From Bacillota bacterium (GTDB taxonomy: Bacteria; Bacillota; Limnochordia; DTU080): a stretch of DNA of 39,078 nt. The notes beneath the pieces were generated by a model. The model saw only the letters and a list, made by a program, of their open reading frames with translations. It did not search any database and was not told where the DNA came from. The DNA is taken from NCBI GenBank assembly GCA_012840225.1, contig DULU01000042.1:1-39078 (forward strand), written 5' to 3'. Positions 946 through 13,856 of this stretch are shown here, one piece after another (within the stretch, counting starts at the first letter, position 1; every line of letters starts with the position of its first letter). The position numbers were made by a program, and so were the translations under genes.

Positions 946-1830
946 CTAGCTGATCACCATGGTGCCGATGCCTTCATCGGTGAATATCTCCAAAAGCAGG
1001 GAATGCATTTTCCGCCCGTCCAGGATGTGGGTGCGGGTCACTCCGCTCTCCAGAGCGCGGATACAGGCTTCCACCTTGGGTATCATGCCGCCGGCAATGT
1101 CGCCCCGGCTGATCATCTCCCGCGCCCGTTCCACCTTCAGGGCGGAGATGCGTTCGGCGCCGGCGGCCTGACTCTCCCTGATGCCGTCCACATCGGTCAG
1201 CATGATGAGCTTCTCGGCTTTCAGCGCCGCCGCCAGCTCGCCGGCCACGGTGTCGGCGTTGATGTTATAGCTCTCCCCGTCCAGACCGACGCCGATGGAA
1301 GAGATGACCGGAATGTAGCCCTCCTGGTTCAGGGTGTGGATCATCTCCGGATTGATCTTTTCCACATCGCCGACAAAGCCCAGATCGGCGGCGGCCGGAT
1401 CGCTGTTGAGCATGGCGGGACGATGCAGATGTTTCCTGGCGAGGATGAGATTGCCGTCCTTGCCCGACAAGCCCACGGCCCGGCCGCCATATTTGTTGAT
1501 CAAGCTGACGATCTCCAGGTTTAGCTTTCCTACCAGCACCATCTGCACGATTTCCATGGTTTCCCGGTCGGTCACCCGCAGGCCGTCCACAAAATGCGGC
1601 TTCTTGCCCATCTTCTGCATCATGTGGTCGATCTCGGGGCCGCCTCCGTGCACCAGGACGGGATCCACGCCGACATACTTAAGCAAGATGACATCGAGCA
1701 TGACGGCCTTCTTCAGCTCGTCGTTAAGCATGGCGTTGCCGCCGTATTTAATGACGAAAGTTTTTCCGTAAAATGTGCGGATATAAGGCAAGGCTTCGAT
1801 CAAAACTTCGGCCTTTTCCAAGACATCCAT
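946..1830 (-). CDS. argB: Acetylglutamate kinase ArgB
   Basis: Amino-acid kinase family enzyme that phosphorylates N-acetylglutamate with ATP, the second step of arginine synthesis and commonly the point of arginine feedback control. The 294-residue protein has full family length. It shows the nucleotide-binding FVIKYGGNAM near residues 26-35, the substrate loop VLVHGGGPEID near 58-68, the substrate-contacting NINADTVAGELA near 190-201, and TDVDGI near 212-217. The N-terminal helix that precedes the kinase fold (about residues 1-22) is of the kind found in arginine-sensitive hexameric forms, so feedback inhibition is possible, but that is inference. The gene sits between argJ (33 nt gap) and argD (19 nt gap) in one transcript. 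Confidence 0.97.
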   Translation of the reverse strand: MDVLEKAEVLIEALPYIRTFYGKTFVIKYGGNAMLNDELKKAVMLDVILLKYVGVDPVLVHGGGPEIDHMMQKMGKKPHFVDGLRVTDRETMEIVQMVLVGKLNLEIVSLINKYGGRAVGLSGKDGNLILARKHLHRPAMLNSDPAAADLGFVGDVEKINPEMIHTLNQEGYIPVISSIGVGLDGESYNINADTVAGELAAALKAEKLIMLTDVDGIRESQAAGAERISALKVERAREMISRGDIAGGMIPKVEACIRALESGVTRTHILDGRKMHSLLLEIFTDEGIGTMVIS

Positions 1831-1863: not shown

Positions 1864-3078
1864 TCAGGTACGATAACTGGCATTGATTTTAATGTAATCA
1901 TCGGTAAGATCGCAAGTCCAAGCCAAGGCTTCTCCTTCCCCCTGATGCATGGCCACGGTGATGAGCACTTCATCACCCTGTAGGACCGCTTTGGCCCGGG
2001 CTTCATCAAAGGGCAGGGCGGAGCCTGCGGCGGCCACCTGCACCTCATTCAGATAGATATCGACTTTGTCCGGATCAAAGGGCACCCCGGCATAACCGGC
2101 GGCGCAGAAGATGCGGCCCCAGTTGGCATCTTCGCCGTATATGGCGGTTTTCACCAGATTCGAGGTGGCGATGGAACGGGCTATCTTCCTCGCTCCCTCC
2201 ACTCCCGGCGCCCCGGTGACCTTCACCTTGATGAGTTTGGTCGCTCCTTCCCCGTCGCGGGCGATCTGCTCGGCCAAAGCACTGCAGACGGTGAACAGGC
2301 CCGCCGTCATGGCTTCCTGGTCCCGGTGGCTCTCCACCCTTGTCCCGGCGGCGCCGTTGGCCATGATGATCGCCATATCGTTGGTGCTGGTATCGCCGTC
2401 TACGCTGGTCATGTTAAAGGTGGCATTGGTGGTTTCCCGCCACGCCGCCGCCAGCCAGTCTTTTTCCACGGCGGCATCGGTGGTGATGAAGGCCAGCATG
2501 GTGGCCATATTGGGATGGATCATGCCCGAACCTTTGGCCATGCCGCCGATGCGCACCCGGCCGCCGGCGAGCTCCACGGTCAGAGCAGCGGTCTTGGGAC
2601 GGGTGTCGGTGGTCATGATGGCTTCGGCGGCCGCCTGCCCGCCGGAGGCCGAGGCGGTCAATTGCGCTTTGGCCATCTCTATCCCTTGGGCCACTCTATC
2701 CATGGGCAGCGGCTGGCCGATCACGCCGGTACTGGCCACCAACACCTCTTCCGGCGGGGTCTCTGTCGCCGCTCCGGCGAGCTCTGCCATCTGCACGGCG
2801 TCCTGCCAGCCTTTGACCCCGTTGCAGGCATTGGCGTTGCCGCTGTTGATCACCAGCGTCCTGGCGACGCCTCTTTTCACCACTTCCCGGCTCCAGATCA
2901 CCGGGGCCGCCACCACCACGTTGGTGGTGAACACCCCGGCGCAAACGGCAGGCCCGGCCGATTTAATTATTGCCAAATCCGGCCGACCGGTTTTCTTCAG
3001 GCCGCAATGCACCCCGGCGGCTGAAAAGCCCCGGGCGTAGGTGACACCAGCTGCGGCCGGAGGAGTAATTTCGCTCAT
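1864..3078 (-). CDS. argJ: Bifunctional ornithine acetyltransferase / N-acetylglutamate synthase ArgJ
   Basis: ArgJ recycles the acetyl group from N-acetylornithine to glutamate (cyclic arginine pathway) and in bifunctional forms also uses acetyl-CoA. The 404-residue protein carries the self-cleavage signature KGSGMIHPNMATMLAF; cleavage is expected between Ala192 and Thr193, leaving Thr193 as the nucleophile of the beta chain. LVINSGNANAC near 75-85 and the Thr-Gly pair in VASTGVIG (114-121; oxyanion hole) are also present. I chose the ATG at 3078 because a run of G residues lies just upstream and the residues match the family N-terminus. The frame stays open to an ATG at 3108 that overlaps the argC stop as TGATG, so a coupled start ten residues longer cannot be excluded. 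No separate argA or argE is seen here, which fits the cyclic route. Confidence 0.96.
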   Translation of the reverse strand: MSEITPPAAAGVTYARGFSAAGVHCGLKKTGRPDLAIIKSAGPAVCAGVFTTNVVVAAPVIWSREVVKRGVARTLVINSGNANACNGVKGWQDAVQMAELAGAATETPPEEVLVASTGVIGQPLPMDRVAQGIEMAKAQLTASASGGQAAAEAIMTTDTRPKTAALTVELAGGRVRIGGMAKGSGMIHPNMATMLAFITTDAAVEKDWLAAAWRETTNATFNMTSVDGDTSTNDMAIIMANGAAGTRVESHRDQEAMTAGLFTVCSALAEQIARDGEGATKLIKVKVTGAPGVEGARKIARSIATSNLVKTAIYGEDANWGRIFCAAGYAGVPFDPDKVDIYLNEVQVAAAGSALPFDEARAKAVLQGDEVLITVAMHQGEGEALAWTCDLTDDYIKINASYRT

Positions 3079-3107
3079 CATCCCATCCCCCCATCTGCAG
3101 AGCACCA

Positions 3108-4160
3108 TCAGGGCAAGAGGCCCGGCACCATGAGGCCTTCCGTCTCGGGTAAGCCAAAGAGGGCGTTCATGCTCTGCACCGCTTGTCCCGACGAGCCCTT
3201 GACCAGGTTGTCCAAGGCCGATTGCACGATGATCCGGCCGACTCTCCGGTCATAGCGCACCGTCACATGGCAGAAGTTGCTGCCGGCCACCGCTTTGGTC
3301 TGAGGCAGCCTGTCTTCGCCCAGCACGACCACGAACGGTTCTCCGGCATAATACTGCCGGAAGAGGTCTATCAGCGCCGCCGTGGTCCAGTCGTCGGCAA
3401 GCGGGCGGCAGACCACGGTGGTCAGGATGCCCCGGCTCATGGGCACCAAGTGCGGGATGAAGGTCACCTGCACGGCGCCGCTCCCCGAGAGGAGCTGCAA
3501 GCCCTGTTCGATCTCCGGCGTGTGGCGATGACCGACGGTGGCATAGGCCTGGACATTCTCCGTGCAGTGGGGAAAATGGAAGTTGGGCTTGGGCGTAGCC
3601 CCGGCCCCTGAGACCCCGGTCATGGCGTTAATGATGATCTGGGACATATCGATCAGCTTATGGGCGGCGAGTGGGGCCAAAGCCAAAAGGGCCCCGGTGG
3701 GGAAGCAGCCCGGTTTGCCGATCAGTTTCGCTTTTTTTATCTCCTCCCTGAACAGTTCCGGCAGCCCATAAGCCGCTTTGGCATTCAGGTCGGGGGCGGT
3801 GTGCGCCTGTTTATACCATTGTTCATAAACCTTAATATCGCGCAGGCGAAAATCGGCGCTCAGATCGATATAATAGCAATCGGCCTCCACAAATGTGCGG
3901 GCCAGCTCCATGGAAGCCCCATTGGGCACGGCGGCAAACACCACATCGCAGCGGCGGGCCATAGCTGCCAAGTCCTGCGGTTCATAGCTCCAGGGCGCCC
4001 AACCGGCCCATTGCGGATGCACATCGGCCAGCTTTTTTCCTCCCAGAGTTCTCGATGAAAGAAATTCCACCTTCACTTGCGGATGTTGCCCCAACCACCT
4101 GAGCAGTTCGCTGCCGGTGTAGCCGGAGGCTCCTATAATTCCTGCTTTAATCATATTCAC
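3108..4160 (-). CDS. argC: N-acetyl-gamma-glutamyl-phosphate reductase ArgC
   Basis: NADPH-dependent reductase converting N-acetylglutamyl phosphate to the semialdehyde, third step of arginine synthesis. The 350-residue protein begins with a Rossmann nucleotide loop (AGIIGASGYTGSELLR, residues 6-21) and carries the catalytic cysteine in GKPGCFPTGALL (C152). The histidine-containing VGHRHTPEIEQ segment near residue 210 matches the family's second catalytic region. It is the first gene of argCJBD, and its stop overlaps a possible argJ start. A sigma-A-like promoter with an arginine-box-like operator lies about 55-80 bp upstream (4212-4240). An alternative ATG two codons downstream of the first gives the same protein less two residues. 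Confidence 0.97.
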   Translation of the reverse strand: MNMIKAGIIGASGYTGSELLRWLGQHPQVKVEFLSSRTLGGKKLADVHPQWAGWAPWSYEPQDLAAMARRCDVVFAAVPNGASMELARTFVEADCYYIDLSADFRLRDIKVYEQWYKQAHTAPDLNAKAAYGLPELFREEIKKAKLIGKPGCFPTGALLALAPLAAHKLIDMSQIIINAMTGVSGAGATPKPNFHFPHCTENVQAYATVGHRHTPEIEQGLQLLSGSGAVQVTFIPHLVPMSRGILTTVVCRPLADDWTTAALIDLFRQYYAGEPFVVVLGEDRLPQTKAVAGSNFCHVTVRYDRRVGRIIVQSALDNLVKGSSGQAVQSMNALFGLPETEGLMVPGLLP

Positions 4161-4211: not shown

Positions 4212-4240
4212 ATTATAATTGTCATTGCATAATTATGCAA
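4212..4240 (-). promoter_or_regulatory. argCJBD promoter with ARG-box-like operator
   Basis: On the minus strand there is a -35 TTGCAT (4235-4240), a 17-nt spacer and a perfect -10 TATAAT (4212-4217). The -35 lies within a perfect 16-bp palindrome, TTGCATAATTATGCAA (4225-4240). ARG boxes bound by ArgR/AhrC are AT-rich 18-bp palindromes with TGNAT-type half sites, and this element resembles them in shape, composition and place. Repression by arginine through an ArgR/AhrC hexamer blocking RNA polymerase is the simple reading. The regulator gene itself is not in the window. Confidence 0.75.
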
Positions 4241-4258: not shown

Positions 4259-5536
4259 TTAAAAATCCTCCGGTCCGGGTTTTTCCAACCATTCCACGGC
4301 GGCTCCCAGTCCTCCGAGGTGCCCCACCGGATCCTCAAGGGTCTCTTCCAGCCAGCCGGCCTCATGCACGATGCTTTCCCCGCCGGCCATCAGGGCGGCG
4401 ATCACCAGAGCCTGAGCAGAGGCGGCATCCTTGGCTCTGAGGCGCGCCCCGCTGAGGCGACCGGGGCCGCGGATGACGGCCAGCGGTCCGTCCTGAGAGA
4501 TCTGACCGCCCAGGCGTTGCAGCTCGTCCAGGTGCAGCGGCCGTCCTTCCCGGTAAGTTTCGGAGACGAGGCTGGTGCCGTCGGCGGCCAGCAGCACGCT
4601 GCACATCACCGGCTGGAGGAATGAGGGAAAGCCGGGATAAAAGGAAGTGCGCACCGTGACCGGGTGGAGGGCGGCCGCGACTCTGATGCCGATCTCCTGC
4701 TCCCCGGCTCTTATGGCGACGCCCATCTCTTCCAGCTTGGCGGTGACCGCCCGCAGGTGTTCGGCAATCACTCCTTTGACCTTCACTTCTCCCCCCGTGC
4801 CGGCTGCCGCCAGCAAATAAAAGGCGGCCGCCAAGCGGTCGGGAACCGCTTCGTGCACCCCACCTCCCAACTCTTCACCGCCGGTGCCGATGACGGTGAT
4901 GCGCTCCGTGCCGGCGCCGGAGACCCTGGCGCCCATACAATTCAGCAAGGTGACGGCATCGACCAATTCCGGCTGCCTGGAGCAGCCGAGAATCTGGGTG
5001 CGGCCTTTGGCGGCGGTGGCGGCGGTGACGGCGGTCCAGGTGGCGGCAAAACCGGGAACATCCAGGACGATCTCGGTCCCTTCCAGTTTTTCTCCCTCCA
5101 CCAGCAAACGGCCGCGCTCCACCGCCACGGACGCTCCCAGTCGGCTCAAGGCTTTCAGGTGCAGGTCGACCGCCTGGTTGTGGCCGACGCCGCCTTCCGG
5201 AAGAGGCATCTCCACCCGCCTCCATCTGGCCAGAAGCGGTCCCAAAAGCAGAATGGCCTGCCGCAGCGTGCCGCTGTCGGTCTCGGGAAAGACCGGCAGG
5301 GTGGGAGCAGGCTCAATCACCCAGGTCCCCGCCGTGTTTTCCATCCTGTGCCCCAGCCGGCTGAGCAAAGCCAAAAACCGCAGCACGCCCCGGGTGGAAG
5401 GCAGGTTGTGCAACACCACCGGGCGTTGGGCTGCCGCCGCCGCCGCCAGAAGCGTCAATGCCGCCTCATAACTGCCGCCGATGGAAACAGTCCCACCGAG
5501 GCTTCTCCCGCCGCGTATCAACAAAGTCCCAGGCAT
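4259..5536 (-). CDS. MurA-like enolpyruvyl transferase fold protein lacking catalytic residues
   Basis: A 425-residue, full-length homologue of UDP-N-acetylglucosamine 1-carboxyvinyltransferase (MurA), the first committed enzyme of peptidoglycan synthesis. The two-domain pattern is clear: a VDLHLKALSRLGA segment (123-135), a PDRLAAAFYLLAAA segment (232-245) and a SETYREGRPLHLDEL segment (325-339) align with MurA. By eye alignment to E. coli MurA the key residues are changed: Lys22-Asn23 become Tyr23-Glu24, Cys115 becomes Gly116, Arg120 becomes Gln121 and Asp305 becomes Phe306. The known natural Cys-to-Asp variant is not what is seen. Counterparts of Arg91 and Arg331 remain. This suggests a non-catalytic relative, perhaps a binding or regulatory protein; function unknown. 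The frame is intact, with a good G-rich ribosome site 8 nt before the ATG, so it is not obviously a pseudogene. The arg promoter begins just after its stop. Confidence 0.85.
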   Translation of the reverse strand: MPGTLLIRGGRSLGGTVSIGGSYEAALTLLAAAAAAQRPVVLHNLPSTRGVLRFLALLSRLGHRMENTAGTWVIEPAPTLPVFPETDSGTLRQAILLLGPLLARWRRVEMPLPEGGVGHNQAVDLHLKALSRLGASVAVERGRLLVEGEKLEGTEIVLDVPGFAATWTAVTAATAAKGRTQILGCSRQPELVDAVTLLNCMGARVSGAGTERITVIGTGGEELGGGVHEAVPDRLAAAFYLLAAAGTGGEVKVKGVIAEHLRAVTAKLEEMGVAIRAGEQEIGIRVAAALHPVTVRTSFYPGFPSFLQPVMCSVLLAADGTSLVSETYREGRPLHLDELQRLGGQISQDGPLAVIRGPGRLSGARLRAKDAASAQALVIAALMAGGESIVHEAGWLEETLEDPVGHLGGLGAAVEWLEKPGPEDF

Positions 5537-5696: not shown

Positions 5697-6293
5697 TCAG
5701 GGGCGGGCCAGGTAAATGCGGTAGCCTGAGCCGCGGCCGACCTCCTCCACTTCCCGGTAATAGGCCTGCACCGCTTCAGCCAAGGTCTTCGCCCCTTGGT
5801 TGGTGCGCACCACAAAAGCCAAAACACCGTCGGGAGCCAGATGCTGCCGGGCTTCGGCCAAAAGAGCCAGCACCTGACTCCGGCCGGCTCTGATGGGCGG
5901 ATTGGTGACGATCAGCCTGAACACGCACCCGGCCACAGGACGCAGGTCGGCGCCCTGATACACCCGCACATTGGCGAGCCCGAGGCGCGCCGCATTTTCT
6001 GCCGCCAAGGCTACCGCTCTTTCATTGACGTCCAGCAGGTGCACCCGGCACTCCGGTCTGATTTTGGCATAATAGAGGCCGATCACCCCATAACCGCATC
6101 CCAGGTCCAGGATGTCTCCCGCCGGCGGTGGGGGGACGGTGGCCAACAATAGCCTCGTGCCCTTATCCACTTTGCGGCGGGAGAAGACGCCGGTGTCGGT
6201 GACCAGCGCCATATGCACGTCACCCAGCCGAAATTCCACCACCTGCCGGCGGTGAGCAGCGGCGGGGCGGGAAGTGAAATAATGCTCGCTCAA
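5697..6293 (-). CDS. Class I SAM-dependent methyltransferase, RsmC/RlmG-like
   Basis: A 198-residue protein of the small-subunit rRNA guanine-N2 methyltransferase type (YbxB/RsmC-like single domain). The N-terminal SEHYFTSRP matches the motif that opens this family. The SAM loop is ILDLGCGYGVIGL, acidic motif II lies in LLDVNERAVALA, and the catalytic motif is TNPPIRAG, the NPP(F/I) type used by methylases that act on exocyclic amino groups of bases. I place the start at the TTG at 6293, which overlaps the upstream stop (TTGA) and follows GGGGAGG by 8 nt; a longer reading from the ATG at 6341 lies inside the upstream gene and lacks such a site. Substrate is likely rRNA, but that is inferred from the family. 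Confidence 0.85.
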   Translation of the reverse strand: MSEHYFTSRPAAAHRRQVVEFRLGDVHMALVTDTGVFSRRKVDKGTRLLLATVPPPPAGDILDLGCGYGVIGLYYAKIRPECRVHLLDVNERAVALAAENAARLGLANVRVYQGADLRPVAGCVFRLIVTNPPIRAGRSQVLALLAEARQHLAPDGVLAFVVRTNQGAKTLAEAVQAYYREVEEVGRGSGYRIYLARP

Positions 6294-7141
6294 GCGACCG
6301 ACCTCCCCGCACCGGTGGTCAGAAGATCGAAGAGGCGGCATAAATCCACCATATCCGCTTCGTTGTGGCGCAGCACCGGCATAATGCTCTCTTCCTCGCC
6401 TTCCGCCATGTAGCGCAGGTATAGCTCCGGGACGCGCTCGCCGGGAATGTCGGCGGTACGCCGGCAGGAAAGGAGGTGCCCGGCCACGGTGGAGAGCCGG
6501 AAATCGGGCAACTCCTCCCGGAAGAGGCGCCTGATCTCATGATAGAGATCCACATGGATGAGAAAATGAGGCCTCTCCAGGCGATGGTAGGTAAGCCGTT
6601 CGGCAACGAAAGGTTCGTCGAAAGCCCGGCCGTTGTAACTCACCAGGCCGCTGAAACGCTGGAGAAAGTCGAGGGCCAGGTAAAGCAGGGCTTTTTCCTC
6701 TTCAAAGCCCCGGGCAAAATATTGTCTCACCCGCCAGGAGCCGTCCTCCTGCCAGCCCAGCCCGATCAGAAAGACCGGCCAGCCGCGGAAGCCGGCCGTT
6801 TCGATATCGATCACGGCCAAATCGGCCGAGTCGAAATAGGACAACAACTCATAATCGCGCGCCCCCGCTTGGCGCAAAGCCGCCAGATCACCCTGTTCCA
6901 GGGCCTGCAGCACTTTCCTGGCCTCGGCGCCGAAGCGGGGATGCCGGCTTAAGGCCACCAGATCGGAAAAGCCTTCCCGGCGCAGCCGCTCCTCGGTGTG
7001 CGGTCCTATGCCGTATACCAACTGGAGCTGCCTCAACAAGCTCTCGCTCGGGCCCGGCCGCCAAGCCTCTCCTGCCGGCCACGACGGGCCCTCAATGGAG
7101 CAGGCCTCGCCGTAAGGCGTGTGCAACCGCAGCACCAACAA
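6290..7141 (-). CDS. YprB-like ribonuclease H-fold exonuclease domain protein
   Basis: A 283-residue protein with an N-terminal helix-hairpin-helix-like region (VYGIGPHTEERLRREG near residues 42-57, typical of DNA binding) followed by a DEDD exonuclease fold. The acidic motifs are visible: VIDIETAG (first D and E), SYNGRAFDEPF (second D), and HNEADMVDL near the C-terminus (H and last D). This combination matches the YprB/RNase_H_2 family of Bacillota, often found near DNA helicase or methyltransferase genes; its cellular substrate is unknown. The stop overlaps the methyltransferase start, so the two are probably translated together. Confidence 0.8.
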   Translation of the reverse strand: MLVLRLHTPYGEACSIEGPSWPAGEAWRPGPSESLLRQLQLVYGIGPHTEERLRREGFSDLVALSRHPRFGAEARKVLQALEQGDLAALRQAGARDYELLSYFDSADLAVIDIETAGFRGWPVFLIGLGWQEDGSWRVRQYFARGFEEEKALLYLALDFLQRFSGLVSYNGRAFDEPFVAERLTYHRLERPHFLIHVDLYHEIRRLFREELPDFRLSTVAGHLLSCRRTADIPGERVPELYLRYMAEGEEESIMPVLRHNEADMVDLCRLFDLLTTGAGRSVA

Positions 7142-7164: not shown

Positions 7165-8673
7165 TCATGGCTCGTCTTCCGGACCAGACACCCCGGTCGC
7201 TACCTCCGGGGTGAAAAGCCGGTATTCATCCCTCAGGTTCAGGGGGATCTGCATATCAGGATAGAGAGCCAACGCCCGCCTCATCAGCTCCGCAGCTCCT
7301 TCGGCATCGCCCTGGCGATAGCGAGCCAACGCCAGGTGGGCCAGGCCGACAGCCAGATCCTCCGGGCAATCCTCGCCGCATTGCTCCCACACTTCGAGAG
7401 CCAGGCTCATCACTTCCTCGCCTTTTTCCGGCTGCCCGGACAGTATCAAAACCCAGCCCAAAGTGTCTATATAAGCCGGATTATTAGGTTCGACCATGAG
7501 ACTCATCTCCACCAGCCGGCGCGCCTTTCTCAGGTCCAGCTGGTCCTCGGCCAGGGCATAAGCCAAATTGTTCATCACCCTGACCAGCATGGGATTGAGC
7601 ATCAGAGCTTGTTCATAGCGCACCCTGGCCTGGTGCAGGCGGCCGGCGGCAAAGAAGGCATCTCCGGCGTCGGCATGGGCTGCGGCCAGATACGGTGCTA
7701 CGGCCGTCGCCGCAGACAGGACTTGCGCCGCCCCGGTATAATCGCCTGCGGCCAAAAGGGCGTAACCTTCGTCTCTCAGCTGGAGATATTTCGTCAACGC
7801 CGGCTGGGACGGCAAATCTATCTGCCGCTCGCCGACTTCGCTATAAACCAGGCGGAACCAGCCGCCGTTCACTGCCTGCCACCGCCAACTTTCCCGGCCG
7901 TCTTCCACCACCCTCAGTACCGCCAGGTCTATCGGCCTGTTCCATCCGGGAGGTTTCACCCAGAAACAGTGAGCCCCGGCGGCGCAGGCGGCCCCGCCTT
8001 CTTCATCAATCCCCAGCACCTGCTCTTCGCCATCTGCGGCCGGGACCATATATGCCAGGGGCAATCCCGTAGCCTCATCAAGCAGGAGGCGATGCCGACC
8101 GTCCGGCTCCTCCCAGATCAAAGCCACCGCCGGCCTCTGCGCCTCCCCGGCCCGGCCGGCGCCGCCGTTTGCTCTTTCCTCTTCAGATGCCCCGGCCGGC
8201 AGGCTTTCCTCGGCCACAGCAGCCTCCGGCCCGGGCATAGGCAGCCATTGCTGCACAGCCGCCAGGACCTCGGTGACCATGGCCTGCTCAATGCGCCCTT
8301 CCTGGTTCGGCCGGCTCACCCAGGCCAAGCCGCCTTGCCACAGATGCTCTTGCCCGACGAGCGCCCCACCGGTATATAAGGCCTGCAGCTGCTCCGGGCC
8401 GGCGACGATCACTTCCGCCTGATGGTTTTGGCAAGTGTCCTCATCCAGGCACAGGATGATCTCCACCGCCGCCTGGTAACTGGTCAGCCAGCGATAGGCG
8501 GCCTGCCAGCGCTCCAGGAATTCGCCGGCGCCGGCCTCCGTCGCCGGCACCAGGAGAAAAGCGGCGATCAGCCAAGCGATGAGCCCGCGGCTCAAGCGCC
8601 GTCCACCGGCTGCCCGTGCGCTCCGGCCATGTCGATAATCATCACTATATTTAAGAAATTGTTTCGCTTTCAT
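7165..8673 (-). CDS. Membrane-anchored or secreted TPR protein with LolA-like N-terminal part
   Basis: A 502-residue protein. Residues 30-45 (LSRGLIAWLIAAFLLVP) form a hydrophobic signal or anchor after a basic N-terminus, so most of the chain should lie outside the membrane. The section from about 50 to 290 resembles the LolA/outer-membrane-lipoprotein-sorting fold in style (aromatic, strand-rich, ending with GGWFRLVYSEVG); an Ala/Glu/Gly-rich loop near 150-180 interrupts it. From about 300 to 480 there are TPR-type repeats, seen as GDYTGAAQVL, GRLHQARVRYEQALMLNP, LDLRKARRLVEMSL and GDAEGAAELMRRALALYP. The start at 8673 has GGAGAGGGAAG directly upstream and overlaps the deoC end by 23 nt. 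Exact role unknown; TPR domains usually bind other proteins. Confidence 0.75.
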   Translation of the reverse strand: MKAKQFLKYSDDYRHGRSARAAGGRRLSRGLIAWLIAAFLLVPATEAGAGEFLERWQAAYRWLTSYQAAVEIILCLDEDTCQNHQAEVIVAGPEQLQALYTGGALVGQEHLWQGGLAWVSRPNQEGRIEQAMVTEVLAAVQQWLPMPGPEAAVAEESLPAGASEEERANGGAGRAGEAQRPAVALIWEEPDGRHRLLLDEATGLPLAYMVPAADGEEQVLGIDEEGGAACAAGAHCFWVKPPGWNRPIDLAVLRVVEDGRESWRWQAVNGGWFRLVYSEVGERQIDLPSQPALTKYLQLRDEGYALLAAGDYTGAAQVLSAATAVAPYLAAAHADAGDAFFAAGRLHQARVRYEQALMLNPMLVRVMNNLAYALAEDQLDLRKARRLVEMSLMVEPNNPAYIDTLGWVLILSGQPEKGEEVMSLALEVWEQCGEDCPEDLAVGLAHLALARYRQGDAEGAAELMRRALALYPDMQIPLNLRDEYRLFTPEVATGVSGPEDEP

Positions 8674-9461
8674 CTTCCCTCTCCAATAACTGCGGACCCC
8701 GGCTGGTGCCGATCCGGCTGGCACCGGCGCCGATCATAGCCCGGGCTTCTTTTGGTTTCCTGATCCCTCCGGCAGCCTTCACGCCCATCTTGTTCCCGAC
8801 CACCGCCCGCAACAGCTGCACGTCGGCGGTAGTGGCGCCGCCGGCCCCAAATCCTGTCGATGTTTTGACGAAATCCGCCCCCGCCCACATGGCGAGCAGG
8901 CTCCCCATCAACTTTTGCTCGGCATTTAATACCGCCGTCTCCAGAATCACCTTCACCAAAGCCGCCGACCCCGCCGCCTCCACCACCGGCGGCAATGTCT
9001 TCATACACCGTCGCCAGATCCCCGGCCAGGAGAGCGCCCAGAGGGATCACCATGTCGATCTCCTGCGCTCCCCGGGAGACCGCCTCGGCGGCTTCCACCG
9101 CTTTCACCAAACTGCGCTGGGCCCCGAGGGGAAAACCGACGGTTGAGACCACCCTGACGTCGCTCCCTCTCAACACCGAGGCCGCCAGATCGATCCAGAG
9201 TGGGTTCACGCAGACCGCCCTGAAGGAGTGCGTCAAGGCCACCCGGCACAGCTGCTCAATGTCCGTCGCCGTCGCTTTGGCCTCCAGCAGAGTGTAATCG
9301 ATCAGGCCCGGCAAGGGGGCATCCGGGGGCACCTGCCACGGTTCGGCGGCAAAATGGACGGCCCGCCGCTTGGCCCGTACGGCCTCCCCCTCAGCAGCCA
9401 ACACCGGCAGGCTGCGTTTCAGCCTGGCCGCTGCCGCTTCGGCTATTTCCCCAATGGTCAT
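8651..9461 (-). pseudogene. deoC: Deoxyribose-phosphate aldolase DeoC, split by a frameshift
   Basis: DeoC cleaves 2-deoxyribose-5-phosphate to acetaldehyde and glyceraldehyde-3-phosphate in deoxynucleoside breakdown. The first part (ATG at 9461, after a purine-rich ribosome site) carries LIDYTLLEAKATATDIEQL and STVGFPLGAQ, then runs to VYEDIAA and leaves frame. The rest is in another frame to 8651: VKVILET and GADFVKTSTGFGAGGATT hold the two lysines used in catalysis, followed by GVKAAGGIR and GASRIGTS. One extra G in the coding strand within about 8954-8993, most likely near 8987-8990, would explain the break; removing it restores a normal junction (DIAA then VVEAAG). Because the downstream part is well conserved, a sequencing error is as likely as recent decay. 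If real, the active site is lost. Confidence 0.85.
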
Positions 9462-10468
9462 GTCCCGTCTCCCTCCTCCACCTGCGGCCAGACAAAGGTG
9501 GGGCATCCTTCGTCTTCTCCCGCTGCGCCGCCGGATGAGGCGCCCGGCACCGCCATAGTCTCGGCGCCTAATTCTTCCCCACAGCGCAGCCCTATGCTCC
9601 GGGCGCCGGCAATGACCAGGCAGTCCTCCGGCCGGGCACCAAGCCGCTGCAGGGCGGTCGTCAGCCTCTCCCGCCAGCGCCTGCCGCTCTCTTCCTTCCC
9701 GACGCCGGCTCCCGGCACCAGCAAAAGCCGCTCCCGTTCCGGAGCAATTTCTTCAAGGTAGCGGCGAATACCTGTATGCCGGCTCTCCCAGATCTCTTCG
9801 GCCACCGCATAACAGGCATAGAACCTGTCCGGTTTCATCACCCGCGGCTGGCGGATCAATCCCTTCTCGGTCGCTATGTACAACAGGCGCTGGTCCTCCG
9901 TCCGGCGGGGCACCCTGGATCTCATCTGCACGGAGAAGGCAATGCCCACCGCTGCCGCCCCGTTCCGCAAGCCGGCCAGGAAACCGTCGTAATAACCGGC
10001 GCCATAGCCCAGGCGATAGCCGGTGTAGTCGAACACCACCCCAGGCACCGCCACCACGTCGATAGCCGTCGCCGGCACCAGCGCCGCATCAGGCGGCGGT
10101 TCCGGTATGCCGTAAGCGCCGGCGGTCAACTCCCCCAAACTTCGCACGACGGCGCACTGTAAGGTACGGCTTTCTTTGATGGTGCGGGGCAACACCAGGG
10201 TAAGGCCGGCAGACAAAACGCGCTCCATAGCCTTATAAGTCGGCACCTCGCCCTGCACCGAAGCATAAAGCATGATGGTGCGGGCCGCTGCCACCTCCGG
10301 CATGGTAAAAAAGTTTTTCCAGATCTTTTCCGCGGCCGCCTCTCTTTCCGTTGGCGACAAGCGGCGGCGGGCCTCCAGCCCGGCCCGGCGGACGGCGGCT
10401 TTCTCTTCCCGGACGAGCCGGACGGCGAGGCCGGAGCTCGCCCCGCCGCCTCCGGACAGGCTAAACAT
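9458..10468 (-). CDS. 5-formyltetrahydrofolate cyclo-ligase with extra C-terminal domain
   Basis: Residues about 17-206 match the 5-FTHF cyclo-ligase (MTHFS/YgfA) family, which converts 5-formyl-THF to 5,10-methenyl-THF with ATP. Visible signs are KAAVRRAGLEARRRLSP at the N-terminus, MLYASVQGEVPTY (67-79), and the nucleotide/folate loop GYRLGYGAGYYDGFLA (150-165). Family members usually end near residue 190-200; here about 130 further residues follow. That tail contains RPEDCLVIAGARSIG and GAETMAVPG, which look like the end of a HAD-type fold without its expected aspartates, so I do not assign a function. The ATG at 10468 follows AAGGGTAGG and overlaps the peptidase stop by 8 nt. The stop overlaps the deoC start by 4 nt. 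Confidence 0.85.
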   Translation of the reverse strand: MFSLSGGGGASSGLAVRLVREEKAAVRRAGLEARRRLSPTEREAAAEKIWKNFFTMPEVAAARTIMLYASVQGEVPTYKAMERVLSAGLTLVLPRTIKESRTLQCAVVRSLGELTAGAYGIPEPPPDAALVPATAIDVVAVPGVVFDYTGYRLGYGAGYYDGFLAGLRNGAAAVGIAFSVQMRSRVPRRTEDQRLLYIATEKGLIRQPRVMKPDRFYACYAVAEEIWESRHTGIRRYLEEIAPERERLLLVPGAGVGKEESGRRWRERLTTALQRLGARPEDCLVIAGARSIGLRCGEELGAETMAVPGASSGGAAGEDEGCPTFVWPQVEEGDGT

Positions 10469-11759
10469 GGCGCCTACCCTTCGGCCACAATATCGACATG
10501 GCGGTCGTCCCCGGATAGACATGCTCCATATACCGCTTATTCAAATCATCGAGGCTCAACTCTTCCATAATGGAAATATAGTCGAAGAGCGAGGTACCGC
10601 GGAAATAATGGCTGACGAAGCTGTTGGCAATGAACTCCAGGGAATTGAAGGCTTCAAGAAACTGGCCGATCAAAGCCCGCCGGCAGCGCAGGAAATCCTC
10701 TTCTCTAAGCCCTTCTCCGGCCACCCGCTCCAGACCCGCCCTGATGGCTTCGGCGAGCTTCTCCGGGTGTTCCGTCTCGCCGCCCAAAACGGAAAAGGCA
10801 TAGGTTGGTGCGCTGGAATAGCGGGCCGAGAAACGGTCATCCAAGAGCCCTTCTTCATAGAGCTGATTATATAGCGGCGAACTCCGGCCCAACACCATGC
10901 GCCAGACCAGCGAGGTGGCCAGCTCCCGCTTCAGCAGCTCGCGGCCCTGGCAGTCGGTCCGGTCCTTGAAACCAAGCAGGAGGCGCGGCCGGGAGATGAC
11001 CAACTCATCGTGGACCACCGCCTGGTGAACTTCCGGAGGCTCCTCCGGGGTGAGGCGCTCCACCGCTTTCTGCTGCCGGTAGCCGCGCTTTCCCAAGTTG
11101 GCTTCCACCTGAGAGGCCACCAGAACGGCTTCCACATCGCCGACCACCATCAGCGCCATATTGACGGGATGGTAGAAGGTGCGGTGGCAATCATAGAGGC
11201 CCTCCTTGGTGATCCGCCTGATCGACTCCACCGTGCCGCCGATATCCACCCGCACCGGATTGACGTGATAGAGCGCCTGCATCAGGTTCATGAAGACGCG
11301 ATGGCCGGGATCGTCTTCATACATGCGCAGCTCCTGCTCAATGATGCCCTGCTCTTTTTGCACGCTGGCATCGGTGAAATAGGGCTCCTGCACCATGTTG
11401 AGCAAAATCTCCAGATTATCCCGAAAACCGGTGGTGCAGGAGAAAAGGTAGTTGGTCAGGTTATAGGTGGTATAGGCGTTGGCCGAGGCACCGTTTTTGG
11501 CAAACAGCTGAAAGACGTCGCCCTCGGGCTTTTCGAACATCTTGTGTTCCAGGAAATGGGCAATACCCTCGGGAACCGTCATCTGCCGGCCGTCGGCGGT
11601 GATAAACTGGGAATCGATGGAGCCATAGTTCACGGCCAGCGCCGCATAAACCTTTTTATATTCCGGTTTGGGCAAGACGAACAACCGCAGACCGGCAGCG
11701 GACACCAGCGTCAAGAGCTTCTCTTTTAGCAGACTGTTCTCCAATGTTTCGAACTTCAC
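10461..11759 (-). CDS. M16 zinc peptidase, YmfH type (active subunit)
   Basis: A 432-residue M16 peptidase. The inverted zinc motif HFLEH (within AHFLEHKMFE, about residues 67-76) and the third ligand glutamate in IIEQELRMYEDDP, about 75 residues later, are both present, as expected for the catalytic partner of the paired YmfF/YmfH-type peptidases of Bacillota. The two-lobed structure is suggested by the second half beginning near residue 240. The gene overlaps the preceding M16 gene by GTGA, with a GTG start, so the two are probably made in equal amounts and act as a heterodimer. No signal peptide is seen, which suggests a cytoplasmic role. The substrate is not known from sequence. Confidence 0.85.
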   Translation of the reverse strand: MKFETLENSLLKEKLLTLVSAAGLRLFVLPKPEYKKVYAALAVNYGSIDSQFITADGRQMTVPEGIAHFLEHKMFEKPEGDVFQLFAKNGASANAYTTYNLTNYLFSCTTGFRDNLEILLNMVQEPYFTDASVQKEQGIIEQELRMYEDDPGHRVFMNLMQALYHVNPVRVDIGGTVESIRRITKEGLYDCHRTFYHPVNMALMVVGDVEAVLVASQVEANLGKRGYRQQKAVERLTPEEPPEVHQAVVHDELVISRPRLLLGFKDRTDCQGRELLKRELATSLVWRMVLGRSSPLYNQLYEEGLLDDRFSARYSSAPTYAFSVLGGETEHPEKLAEAIRAGLERVAGEGLREEDFLRCRRALIGQFLEAFNSLEFIANSFVSHYFRGTSLFDYISIMEELSLDDLNKRYMEHVYPGTTAMSILWPKGRRHV

Positions 11760-13051
11760 TTGGTAATCCCGTCCTTCCGGCTCTGGTCGGATAGAAAGTA
11801 AATGGTATCGAGTGTAGCGCCGGCGGCCACCCGCATCACGTCTTCCACCGTGACCTGGTTCACCCGGACCAGCGTCTCTTCTATCCGCCGCGGTTTGTTG
11901 TTCACCTGCCCCAGATAATCGGCGTCGATGATCTGTCCGGCATCGTCCCGGGAAGAGAGGAAATCGTTGGTAATGCTCTTTTGCGCCGCCTCCAGTTCTT
12001 CTTGGCTGATCTTCCCGGCTTTAGTCTCTTCCAGCTGGGCGGTGATCAGATCCAAGGCTTCCTGGAAGCGGGCGGCATCGATGCCGGCCAGAAGGAACTG
12101 CAGCCCCTTGGTGGTGTCCAGGCGGCTGTAGGCGAAATAGGCCATGCTGTGCTTTTCCCGCACATTGATGAAAAGCTTGGAATGAGGATACCCGCCGAGG
12201 ATGCCGTTCTGCACCAAAAGAGCCGGGTAGTCGTCGGAGGTATAGGTGGTAGCCTGGCGCAGGCCGATGGCCAGCACCGCCTGTTTCACATCCTGCTCCT
12301 CCCGCACCAGGCGGGTCTCTCCGGCCGGTTGCCGGCCGGCCGCCGGGAAGGAGAGGGGTTCCCGCTTCGGCAGCCGCCACAAGTCGGCCACCAAGGAAAC
12401 CGCCCGCTCCGGCTCCACACCGCCCACGATATAGAACTCCATGACGGCCTGTTCGATCAGGCGGTAATAATGCGCCCCCAGGCGCTCCGGGGTGATGGCG
12501 TCCAGATCGGCCACCCGGCCGTAACGATAGAGGGAGAACGGCTCATGGCGGCACATGTTTTCCAGGAGCCGGGTCAAGGCATAGCGGGGTTTGTCGTTAA
12601 TCAAGGCTTCTATCTTGCGCCGCAGGATAGCCTTCTCACCTGTCACGTACTCTTCCCGGAAGGCCCCCTGAGGCAGGAGAGGCTGCATGGTGACGGCGTG
12701 CAGGAATTCCAAGCCCTGTTTCAGGAGGTCGACGCGGCGCTCTGTCGATCCGATGTAGGAATCGTCCGCCACTTCCAGATCGAACTCAATGTTCTGGGTT
12801 TCGCCGATCTTGGTCACATCCATGCCGAAGCCGGCGCCGTACAGGCTTTCCAGGCGGATGGCGATGTCACGGTTGGTAGGCCACGGCGCGCAGCCGCGCT
12901 TCATCACCATAGGCAAAAGGGCCGTTTTGGTGACGCTTTCCTCGGCCAGAGGCCAGCGCCAGAACAATTTGATGCGGATCGTCTTGAATTTGGCCGTCGG
13001 CAATACGTTGATATGTACTCCCGGCAACACAGATAGCCTTTTAAATTCCAT
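11756..13051 (-). CDS. M16 peptidase-like protein, YmfF type (non-catalytic partner)
   Basis: A 431-residue M16-fold protein that lacks the HxxEH zinc motif: the corresponding region reads PLAEESVTKTALLPMVMKRG. Its second half contains the M16 substrate-binding style segment GGYPHSKLFINVREKHSMAYFAYSR, here split as GGYPHSKLFINVREKH and SMAYFAYSR. This is the usual arrangement in two-gene M16 systems, in which one subunit holds zinc and the other holds the peptide. The start is the ATG at 13051, 8 nt after GGGAGG; the open frame runs further upstream but that part lies in lipA. It overlaps lipA by 11 nt and the active subunit by 4 nt. Confidence 0.82.
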   Translation of the reverse strand: MEFKRLSVLPGVHINVLPTAKFKTIRIKLFWRWPLAEESVTKTALLPMVMKRGCAPWPTNRDIAIRLESLYGAGFGMDVTKIGETQNIEFDLEVADDSYIGSTERRVDLLKQGLEFLHAVTMQPLLPQGAFREEYVTGEKAILRRKIEALINDKPRYALTRLLENMCRHEPFSLYRYGRVADLDAITPERLGAHYYRLIEQAVMEFYIVGGVEPERAVSLVADLWRLPKREPLSFPAAGRQPAGETRLVREEQDVKQAVLAIGLRQATTYTSDDYPALLVQNGILGGYPHSKLFINVREKHSMAYFAYSRLDTTKGLQFLLAGIDAARFQEALDLITAQLEETKAGKISQEELEAAQKSITNDFLSSRDDAGQIIDADYLGQVNNKPRRIEETLVRVNQVTVEDVMRVAAGATLDTIYFLSDQSRKDGITK

Positions 13052-13856
13052 GCCAGATGCCTCCCACCATCGTCTGCAAAGCTTCACCGGCTTTATATGA
13101 GCTGCGCACCAGCGGGCCGCTGGCCACGAACCTGAAACCTGCCGCCAAAGCCCTTTCCTTATAGAGTGCAAATTTTTCCGGGGTCACATACTCACTGACC
13201 GGCACATGCTGCCTCGTGGGGGGCAGATATTGCCCTATGGTGAGGAAATCGCAATCCACCTGCCGCAGATCGGCAAAAGCCCCGACCAGGTCTTCCTCGC
13301 TCTCTCCCAAGCCGACCATCAAGCTGGACTTGGTGAAGACCTGCGGCGCCATCTCCTTGGCGCGCCGGAGAAGCTCAAGGGAGCGCCGGTAATTATATCC
13401 CGGCCGGATGCGGGCATGCAGCCTTGCCACCGTTTCCAGGTTATGCGCCAGCACATCGGGCGCCTCGGCCAGCACCACGGCCAGATCTTCCTTCCGGCCG
13501 CCGAAATCCGGTATCAGCACTTCCACCGTGCAGCCGGGACAGTGCCGTTTGACGGCCCTGATGGTGGCGGCAAATTGCCCGGCACCGCCGTCGGGCAGAT
13601 CGTCCCGGCTCACCGAGGTGATCACCGCATGCTTCAGTCCGAGTTCCCGAACGGCCTCCGCCACCTGTTCCGGTTCCTTTGGGTCGGGCGGCACCGGCCG
13701 CCCCGAAGTGACCTTGCAAAAACCGCAGTTCCTTGTGCAAATATGGCCCAGGATCAGGAAAGTGGCCGTGCGGGCGGCCCAGCATTCCCCCAGGTTTGGG
13801 CAGCCGGCGTTTTGGCAGATAGTATTGAGGTGCAGCCTGTCGAGCATCGTCCGCAT
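13041..13856 (-). CDS. lipA: Lipoyl synthase LipA
   Basis: Radical SAM enzyme that inserts two sulfur atoms into octanoyl groups bound to lipoyl domains. Both iron-sulfur clusters are encoded: the auxiliary cluster cysteines in CQNAGCPNLGEC and the radical SAM CxxxCxxC in CTRNCGFCKV. The C-terminal RSSYKAGE supplies the conserved RSSY serine that ligates the auxiliary cluster. The first ATG of this frame is at 13856, but family-like sequence (RKPPWLTRPLPPAQALGR) precedes it without any ATG, GTG or TTG back to an in-frame TAG at 13926-13928; immediately before that TAG are ATG ATT with a GGGAG ribosome site. The true N-terminus is therefore uncertain. Substrates would include the E2 encoded at 26070-27281. 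Confidence 0.93.
   Translation of the reverse strand: MRTMLDRLHLNTICQNAGCPNLGECWAARTATFLILGHICTRNCGFCKVTSGRPVPPDPKEPEQVAEAVRELGLKHAVITSVSRDDLPDGGAGQFAATIRAVKRHCPGCTVEVLIPDFGGRKEDLAVVLAEAPDVLAHNLETVARLHARIRPGYNYRRSLELLRRAKEMAPQVFTKSSLMVGLGESEEDLVGAFADLRQVDCDFLTIGQYLPPTRQHVPVSEYVTPEKFALYKERALAAGFRFVASGPLVRSSYKAGEALQTMVGGIWHGI

Follow-up and report, generated by a model that had tools for sequence, protein, structure and literature searches.

A predicted MurA pseudoenzyme maintained by selection in two genera of a Bacillota lineage

Introduction

Extra MurA copies in several bacteria have second jobs that are unexplained; the Listeria paralog MurZ, for example, has a part in MurA degradation whose route is unexplained (PMC7286690). 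In a crosslinking study of B. subtilis, MurAA–MurAB was among the high-scoring paralog dimers (PMC10090944). MurA in Bacillota is controlled by IreB/ReoM, a small target of the PASTA kinase, and IreB of E. faecalis binds and inhibits MurAB (PMC12077105). Binding of ReoM is lost when Listeria MurA carries N197D or S262L (PMC8959180). Among the catalytic positions, Lys22, Cys115, and Asp305 are listed as important for MurA activity (PMC4062475). The phosphonate of fosfomycin is held in E. coli MurA by Lys22, Arg120, and Arg397, and Asp at position 115 gives an active enzyme where Glu does not (PMC4790336).

Here we describe a MurA homolog, pMurA (pseudo-MurA), encoded in a 39,078-nucleotide stretch of DNA from a Bacillota bacterium (contig DULU01000042.1), which we refer to as the window. 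A first-pass annotation, made from the letters of the window, had proposed that it is a pseudoenzyme of peptidoglycan synthesis retained for another job, such as a regulatory contact or the binding of UDP-GlcNAc. In a MurA that selection keeps without its chemistry, the non-catalytic job stands apart from the catalytic one, and the parts of the fold required for the former can be recognized. Our searches of open-licence papers found no described MurA pseudoenzyme, and to our knowledge pMurA, as one maintained by selection, has not been described so far.

Results

The pMurA gene and the parts of it discussed below are as follows.

4259–5536, minus strand: pMurA, 425 amino acids, MurA fold without catalytic residues
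5159–5206, minus strand: codons 111–126, position of the MurA catalytic loop (Cys115, Arg120)
4721–5062, minus strand: codons 159–272, constrained block, 69% identity between orthologs versus 41% elsewhere
4937–4972, minus strand: helix 189–200, including T196, equivalent of Listeria MurA N197
4727–4765, minus strand: helix 258–270 (AEHLRAVTAKLEE), including A263, equivalent of Listeria MurA S262

The reading frame is open for 425 codons on the minus strand (5536 to 4259) and lies among densely packed, co-oriented genes. A G-rich stretch, ACAGGGGGGCGG, is found a short way 5′ of the ATG, in agreement with the intact frame and ribosome site seen in the first pass. The homology to MurA that had been claimed over the full length was borne out by domain and profile matches, by end-to-end alignment, and by a two-domain fold of the EPSP-synthase type. 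Sequence identity to MurA is 34–41%, and structural Gly and Pro positions are kept. Against the murA model TIGR01072, pMurA scored 326.5 bits and its ortholog from a second genus (described below) 282.9 bits, both under the curated cut-off of 392.7; all eight other MurAs that were scanned reached 482–553 bits, with 482–548 for the three that share a genome with pMurA. The subfamily cut-off of PRK09369 was exceeded (326 versus 297). Mis-assignment of an AroA was ruled out by the AroA model TIGR01356, which gave 71.8 bits against a cut-off of 287.25.

We aligned pMurA with 39 reference MurAs, 38 from relatives in the class or phylum plus that of E. coli. Every replacement that had been called by eye was confirmed: Lys22-Asn23 is Tyr-Glu, Cys115 is Gly, Arg120 is Gln, and Asp305 is Phe. 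The alignment added G113E, I117G, S162G, V163F, E188Q, E234A, L370A, R371A, and R397E to this list, while R91, D123-L124-H125, R331, and D369 are retained. AlphaFold modeled pMurA with a pLDDT of 91.9 and a pTM of 0.92. The low-confidence parts were residues 116–119, in the former catalytic loop (pLDDT <50), and the last three residues. The predicted fold is intact, with a TM score of 0.93 to a solved MurA, in keeping with the earlier observation that fold-defining segments are kept. Foldseek matched the model to NikO and AroA (E-values of 2e-35 and about 1e-25). Judged by alignment and predicted structure, pMurA is a MurA-family pseudoenzyme, with a homologous fold and the catalytic signature missing.

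A genome from a second genus in the family (G001; contig C30, locus L040) carries a pMurA ortholog that is full length, has an open frame, and is 49% identical. Its substitutions include K22H, N23E, R91W, C115S, R120G, D305E, R331S, R371N, and R397T, so the survey of neighboring genomes suggested in the first pass found the active site ruined here too, with several losses common to both proteins. R91, L124, H125, and R331, which the window's pMurA keeps, are lost in this ortholog. At the positions for PEP binding and proton transfer, the two proteins (window/G001) have Y/H for Lys22, Q/G for Arg120, A/N for Arg371, E/T for Arg397, and F/E for Asp305. Position 115 is Gly in the former and Ser in the latter, neither Cys nor Asp. 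Both genomes share the gene order RNase_H_2 protein, MTS methyltransferase, pMurA, palindrome with TATAAT, argC. Chance or a sequencing or assembly artefact was ruled out, because the second genus carries the ortholog with this same gene order and similar losses.

The 39 MurAs have 79 near-invariant positions. Both pMurAs keep 42 of these, largely Gly, Pro, and other fold positions, and both have lost 22, including K22, N23, C115, R120, S162, D305, L370, R371, and R397. Since 28 residues (N23E, V163F, and E234A among them) are common to both pMurAs and present in 0 of the 39 MurAs, the catalytic losses probably predate the split of the two genera. We consider it very likely that the function of pMurA is a non-catalytic one.

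When 73 genomes of the class and a sample of 398 from the phylum were searched with a profile built from the two sequences, no further pMurA turned up; the two themselves scored 842 and 830 bits and the next protein 345, a value that ordinary MurAs also reach. Named genomes, scanned with the single protein, gave only catalytic MurAs from distant taxa. Additional pMurAs could emerge from wider genome sampling.

The chromosomal slot occupied by pMurA is marked by the following features.

6290–7141, minus strand: RNase_H_2-domain protein, upstream slot marker
5697–6341, minus strand: MTS-type methyltransferase, upstream slot marker kept across the class
4225–4240, minus strand: palindrome TTGCATAATTATGCAA, ARG-box-like, adjoining a −10-like TATAAT 5′ of argC
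3108–4160, minus strand: argC, downstream slot marker
1864–3108, minus strand: argJ
946–1830, minus strand: argB

We read TTGCATAATTATGCAA as a putative ARG-box. A counterpart palindrome, TTGCATAATTATGCA(A), precedes argC together with a TATAAT box in the second genus (L040, about 4138–4152). Because palindrome and TATAAT are arranged alike in both genera, the arg operon probably has a start of its own downstream of pMurA.

A MurA fills the slot between methyltransferase and argC in four further families of the class (G016, G019, G022, and G025), and all catalytic residues are present in the MurAs of this slot clade where checked. G006 and G007 have a MurA after the methyltransferase, with argC absent there. 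The methyltransferase directly adjoins argC, leaving the slot empty, in G002, which represents the third genus of the window's family, and in three further genomes of the same order (G003, G004, and G005); tblastn searches of these four empty slots for MurA remnants gave chance matches only, and pMurA was not found elsewhere in the four genomes. An Amidase_3 gene stands directly before the slot murA in several other families (L108:6397–7182, plus L106:4363–5589, both on the minus strand, and L109:5787–6539 on the plus strand), fused to a Germane domain in L106. It is absent at the slot in the pMurA genomes.

We propose that an ordinary slot MurA would have lost substrate binding and chemistry in the common ancestor of the two pMurA genera and been kept as a folded protein, and that it would have been lost outright in the relatives whose slot is empty. 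pMurA is thus probably the MurA that belongs to this slot, and its change into a pseudoenzyme probably came before the two genera diverged. This descent rests on gene order, because the pMurA pair sits on a long branch of the protein tree whose placement is equally allowed with the slot clade (p-AU 0.44), with mB (0.35), and with mA, and because diagnostic residues favor none of the candidate clades. The best tree unites the pair with mA at a support of 31/56.

Between the two pMurA genes, identity is 0.677 at second codon positions (0.256 when shuffled) and 0.369 at fourfold sites (0.303 expected from composition). As second positions are well conserved while fourfold sites are near saturation, pMurA has been under purifying selection since the genera split. 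Amino-acid identity between the genera is 0.489 for pMurA, 0.526 for the MTS methyltransferase, and 0.475 for the RNase_H_2 protein, and second-position identity of these two neighbors is 0.706 and 0.670, respectively. Selection on pMurA is less tight than on catalytic MurA, for which second positions are 0.81–0.84 identical and amino-acid identity is 66–67% (versus 49%). The earlier suggestion of a pseudoenzyme retained by selection for another job is therefore well founded on purifying selection, presence in two genera, and shared losses, and the relative shows an open frame and constrained second positions rather than decay.

The constraint is unevenly distributed along the protein. We compared 24 cleft positions that we take, from general knowledge of MurA structures, to hold UDP-GlcNAc and PEP; they were listed independently of the pMurA comparison. 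The pMurA pair is identical at 5 of these 24 (21%) and at 198 of 391 positions elsewhere (51%; p = 0.0055), whereas active MurA pairs are 88–96% identical in the cleft (about 22–23 of 24) and 45–68% in the rest. Residues 76–150, with the catalytic loop inside, are 22% identical between the pMurAs, compared with 52–79% in active pairs. Residues 159–272 are close to active pairs in their identity; this block was picked after viewing window-by-window identities, so its p-value is optimistic, and what the analysis offers is a comparison with active MurA pairs rather than a calculation over the protein surface. Because several active pairs also conserve the block somewhat better (odds ratios of 1.1–2.5 versus 3.1 in pMurA), its conservation may be partly due to the fold. 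The inverted pattern of constraint would fit a folded body serving protein contact.

The genome that holds the window (G000) is 3.55 Mb and 97% complete. Five of its proteins belong to the superfamily: three full-signature MurAs (contigs C50, C150, and C143), one member without MurA similarity that is taken as AroA (C35), and pMurA. Since three MurAs with a complete signature are present, the cell would not need pMurA for catalysis. One of the three (G000:C143:14564–15805, minus strand) sits on a long branch (1.02) and carries a C-terminal extension with many Met, Gly, and Asp residues; its catalytic residues are intact.

IreB/ReoM is encoded in all six genomes of the order. In five of them an IreB gene immediately precedes a catalytic murA (G000:C150:12263–12493, minus strand; G002:C51; G003:C288; G004:C30; G005:C124), which suggests an operon of a regulator with its target; each of these five has a second IreB elsewhere. 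PASTA-domain proteins occur in all three genomes of the window's family, and LpxC in all six of the order (G000:C64:31926–32729 and five relatives). The window itself holds tandem YfmH- and YfmF-type M16 peptidase homologs (10461–13171, minus strand) adjoining a radical SAM protein (13041–13856). The combination of LpxC and IreB with the PASTA proteins and YfmF/YfmH suggests that the lineage is one of diderm Bacillota. Elsewhere in the window, a 278-residue ORF (8670–9506, minus strand) matches deoC at 116.5 bits (cut-off 117.3) over residues 68–173 only and has no Pfam match; it is perhaps a frameshifted or wrongly started gene.

Discussion

Several explanations keep a small molecule in the cleft. 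That pMurA still works as MurA through an unusual active site is hardly conceivable from its sequence: it passes the PRK09369 cut-off, but K22, C115, R120, D305, R371, and R397 are lost in both orthologs, and three full-signature MurAs are already there to do the work. It would be less strange, although still improbable, for the EPSP-synthase fold to have been reused as a new enzyme, with a different reaction or different substrates in the cleft. The superfamily has changed substrate before, NikO being a solved relative, and a few cleft positions have shared new residues (N23E, V163F). However, a new active site should be conserved, and here it is the most variable part, under a loop predicted at low confidence; the basic residues that bind PEP (K22, R120, R371, R397) are gone from both proteins. 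We give similarly little credence to a sensor that would bind UDP-GlcNAc or another cell-wall nucleotide without turnover. The window's pMurA keeps D123, D369, and some of the R-P-V-D-L-H segment, but its ortholog has lost L124, H125, and R91, and S162, R120, and D305 are missing from both. Either a sensor or a new enzyme would keep the cleft residues, which are the least conserved, and this disfavors both. UDP-GlcNAc sensing was accordingly set aside as a first choice, and that part of the first-pass proposal did not hold.

A slot MurA that is simply decaying, its frames intact by chance, would account for the empty slot in the family's third genus and in three other genomes of the order, which shows the gene to be dispensable more widely, and for the faster evolution of pMurA relative to active MurA. 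This explanation was already disfavored and we consider it highly improbable, given conserved second positions beside saturated fourfold sites, open frames in both genera, constraint similar to that on neighboring genes, and the 28 shared derived residues. A dead MurA might instead serve as a dedicated activator of LpxC, split off from a dual job of the P. aeruginosa type. LpxC is encoded throughout the order, and its activation by PaMurA does not depend on catalysis, since the catalytically dead C117S variant still activates it (PMC9995270). Yet G58 and E406, which PaMurA requires, are S/R and V/C in the two pMurAs, unconserved and in less conserved parts of the protein, and the interaction has been analyzed in proteobacteria only. 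We regard an LpxC activator as unlikely, if somewhat less so than a sensor or a new enzyme.

The most likely reading, which we hold at about even confidence, is that pMurA is a non-catalytic regulator controlling the MurA step through protein contact; the regulatory contact named in the first pass is still the best guess. Such a protein would act at the first committed step in making peptidoglycan. It could pair with the catalytic MurA copies, or it could offer IreB/ReoM the docking face of MurA and thereby titrate that regulator off the active enzyme. Either role, that of a decoy or that of a mute partner for active MurA, is plausible because IreB and PASTA proteins are present and because Listeria, E. 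faecalis, and B. subtilis offer precedents. The equivalents of Listeria N197 and S262 fall in two helices of the conserved block 159–272. These helices are conserved between the pMurAs, but the two positions themselves vary, with T/N and A in the pMurAs and no fixed residue among active MurAs. The pMurA gene is carried by two genomes only and has no genetic linkage to ireB; there is no co-occurrence signal with IreB or PASTA proteins, because G002, without pMurA, has both. On this analysis, docking of IreB by pMurA is possible but doubtful. The same tentative standing applies to the fuller proposal of a dedicated decoy or adaptor in PASTA kinase–IreB(ReoM)–MurA control in an LpxC-bearing, Bacillota-like lineage, with its regulator-facing part constrained and its cleft drifting. 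If true, a decoy or adaptor of this kind would be a pseudoenzyme layer of control on the first committed step of cell-wall synthesis.

Among known systems, MurA itself (TIGR01072, PF00275) is the closest, sharing with pMurA the full-length fold, 34–41% identity, and the slot that a full-signature MurA occupies in related families. pMurA differs in having no catalytic or PEP- and UDP-GlcNAc-binding residues, in falling below the equivalog cut-off, and in a cleft that is free to vary. MurZ of Listeria monocytogenes likewise accompanies a main MurA as its paralog, and its role in the stability of MurA is called unclear by the authors (PMC7286690); pMurA lacks the catalytic signature, and its own regulatory role is a predicted one. 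MurA of P. aeruginosa provides the example of a MurA-fold job that is independent of catalysis (PMC9995270), although it is an active enzyme and pMurA is without the residues mapped to the LpxC face. CwlM is a cell-wall enzyme homolog that acts as a regulator of peptidoglycan synthesis, through mycobacterial MurA (PMC4946905), but it has an amidase fold, is controlled by phosphorylation, and is unrelated in sequence. NikO and AroA share the superfamily fold with pMurA; they are active enzymes with other substrates, at 18–23% identity to it.
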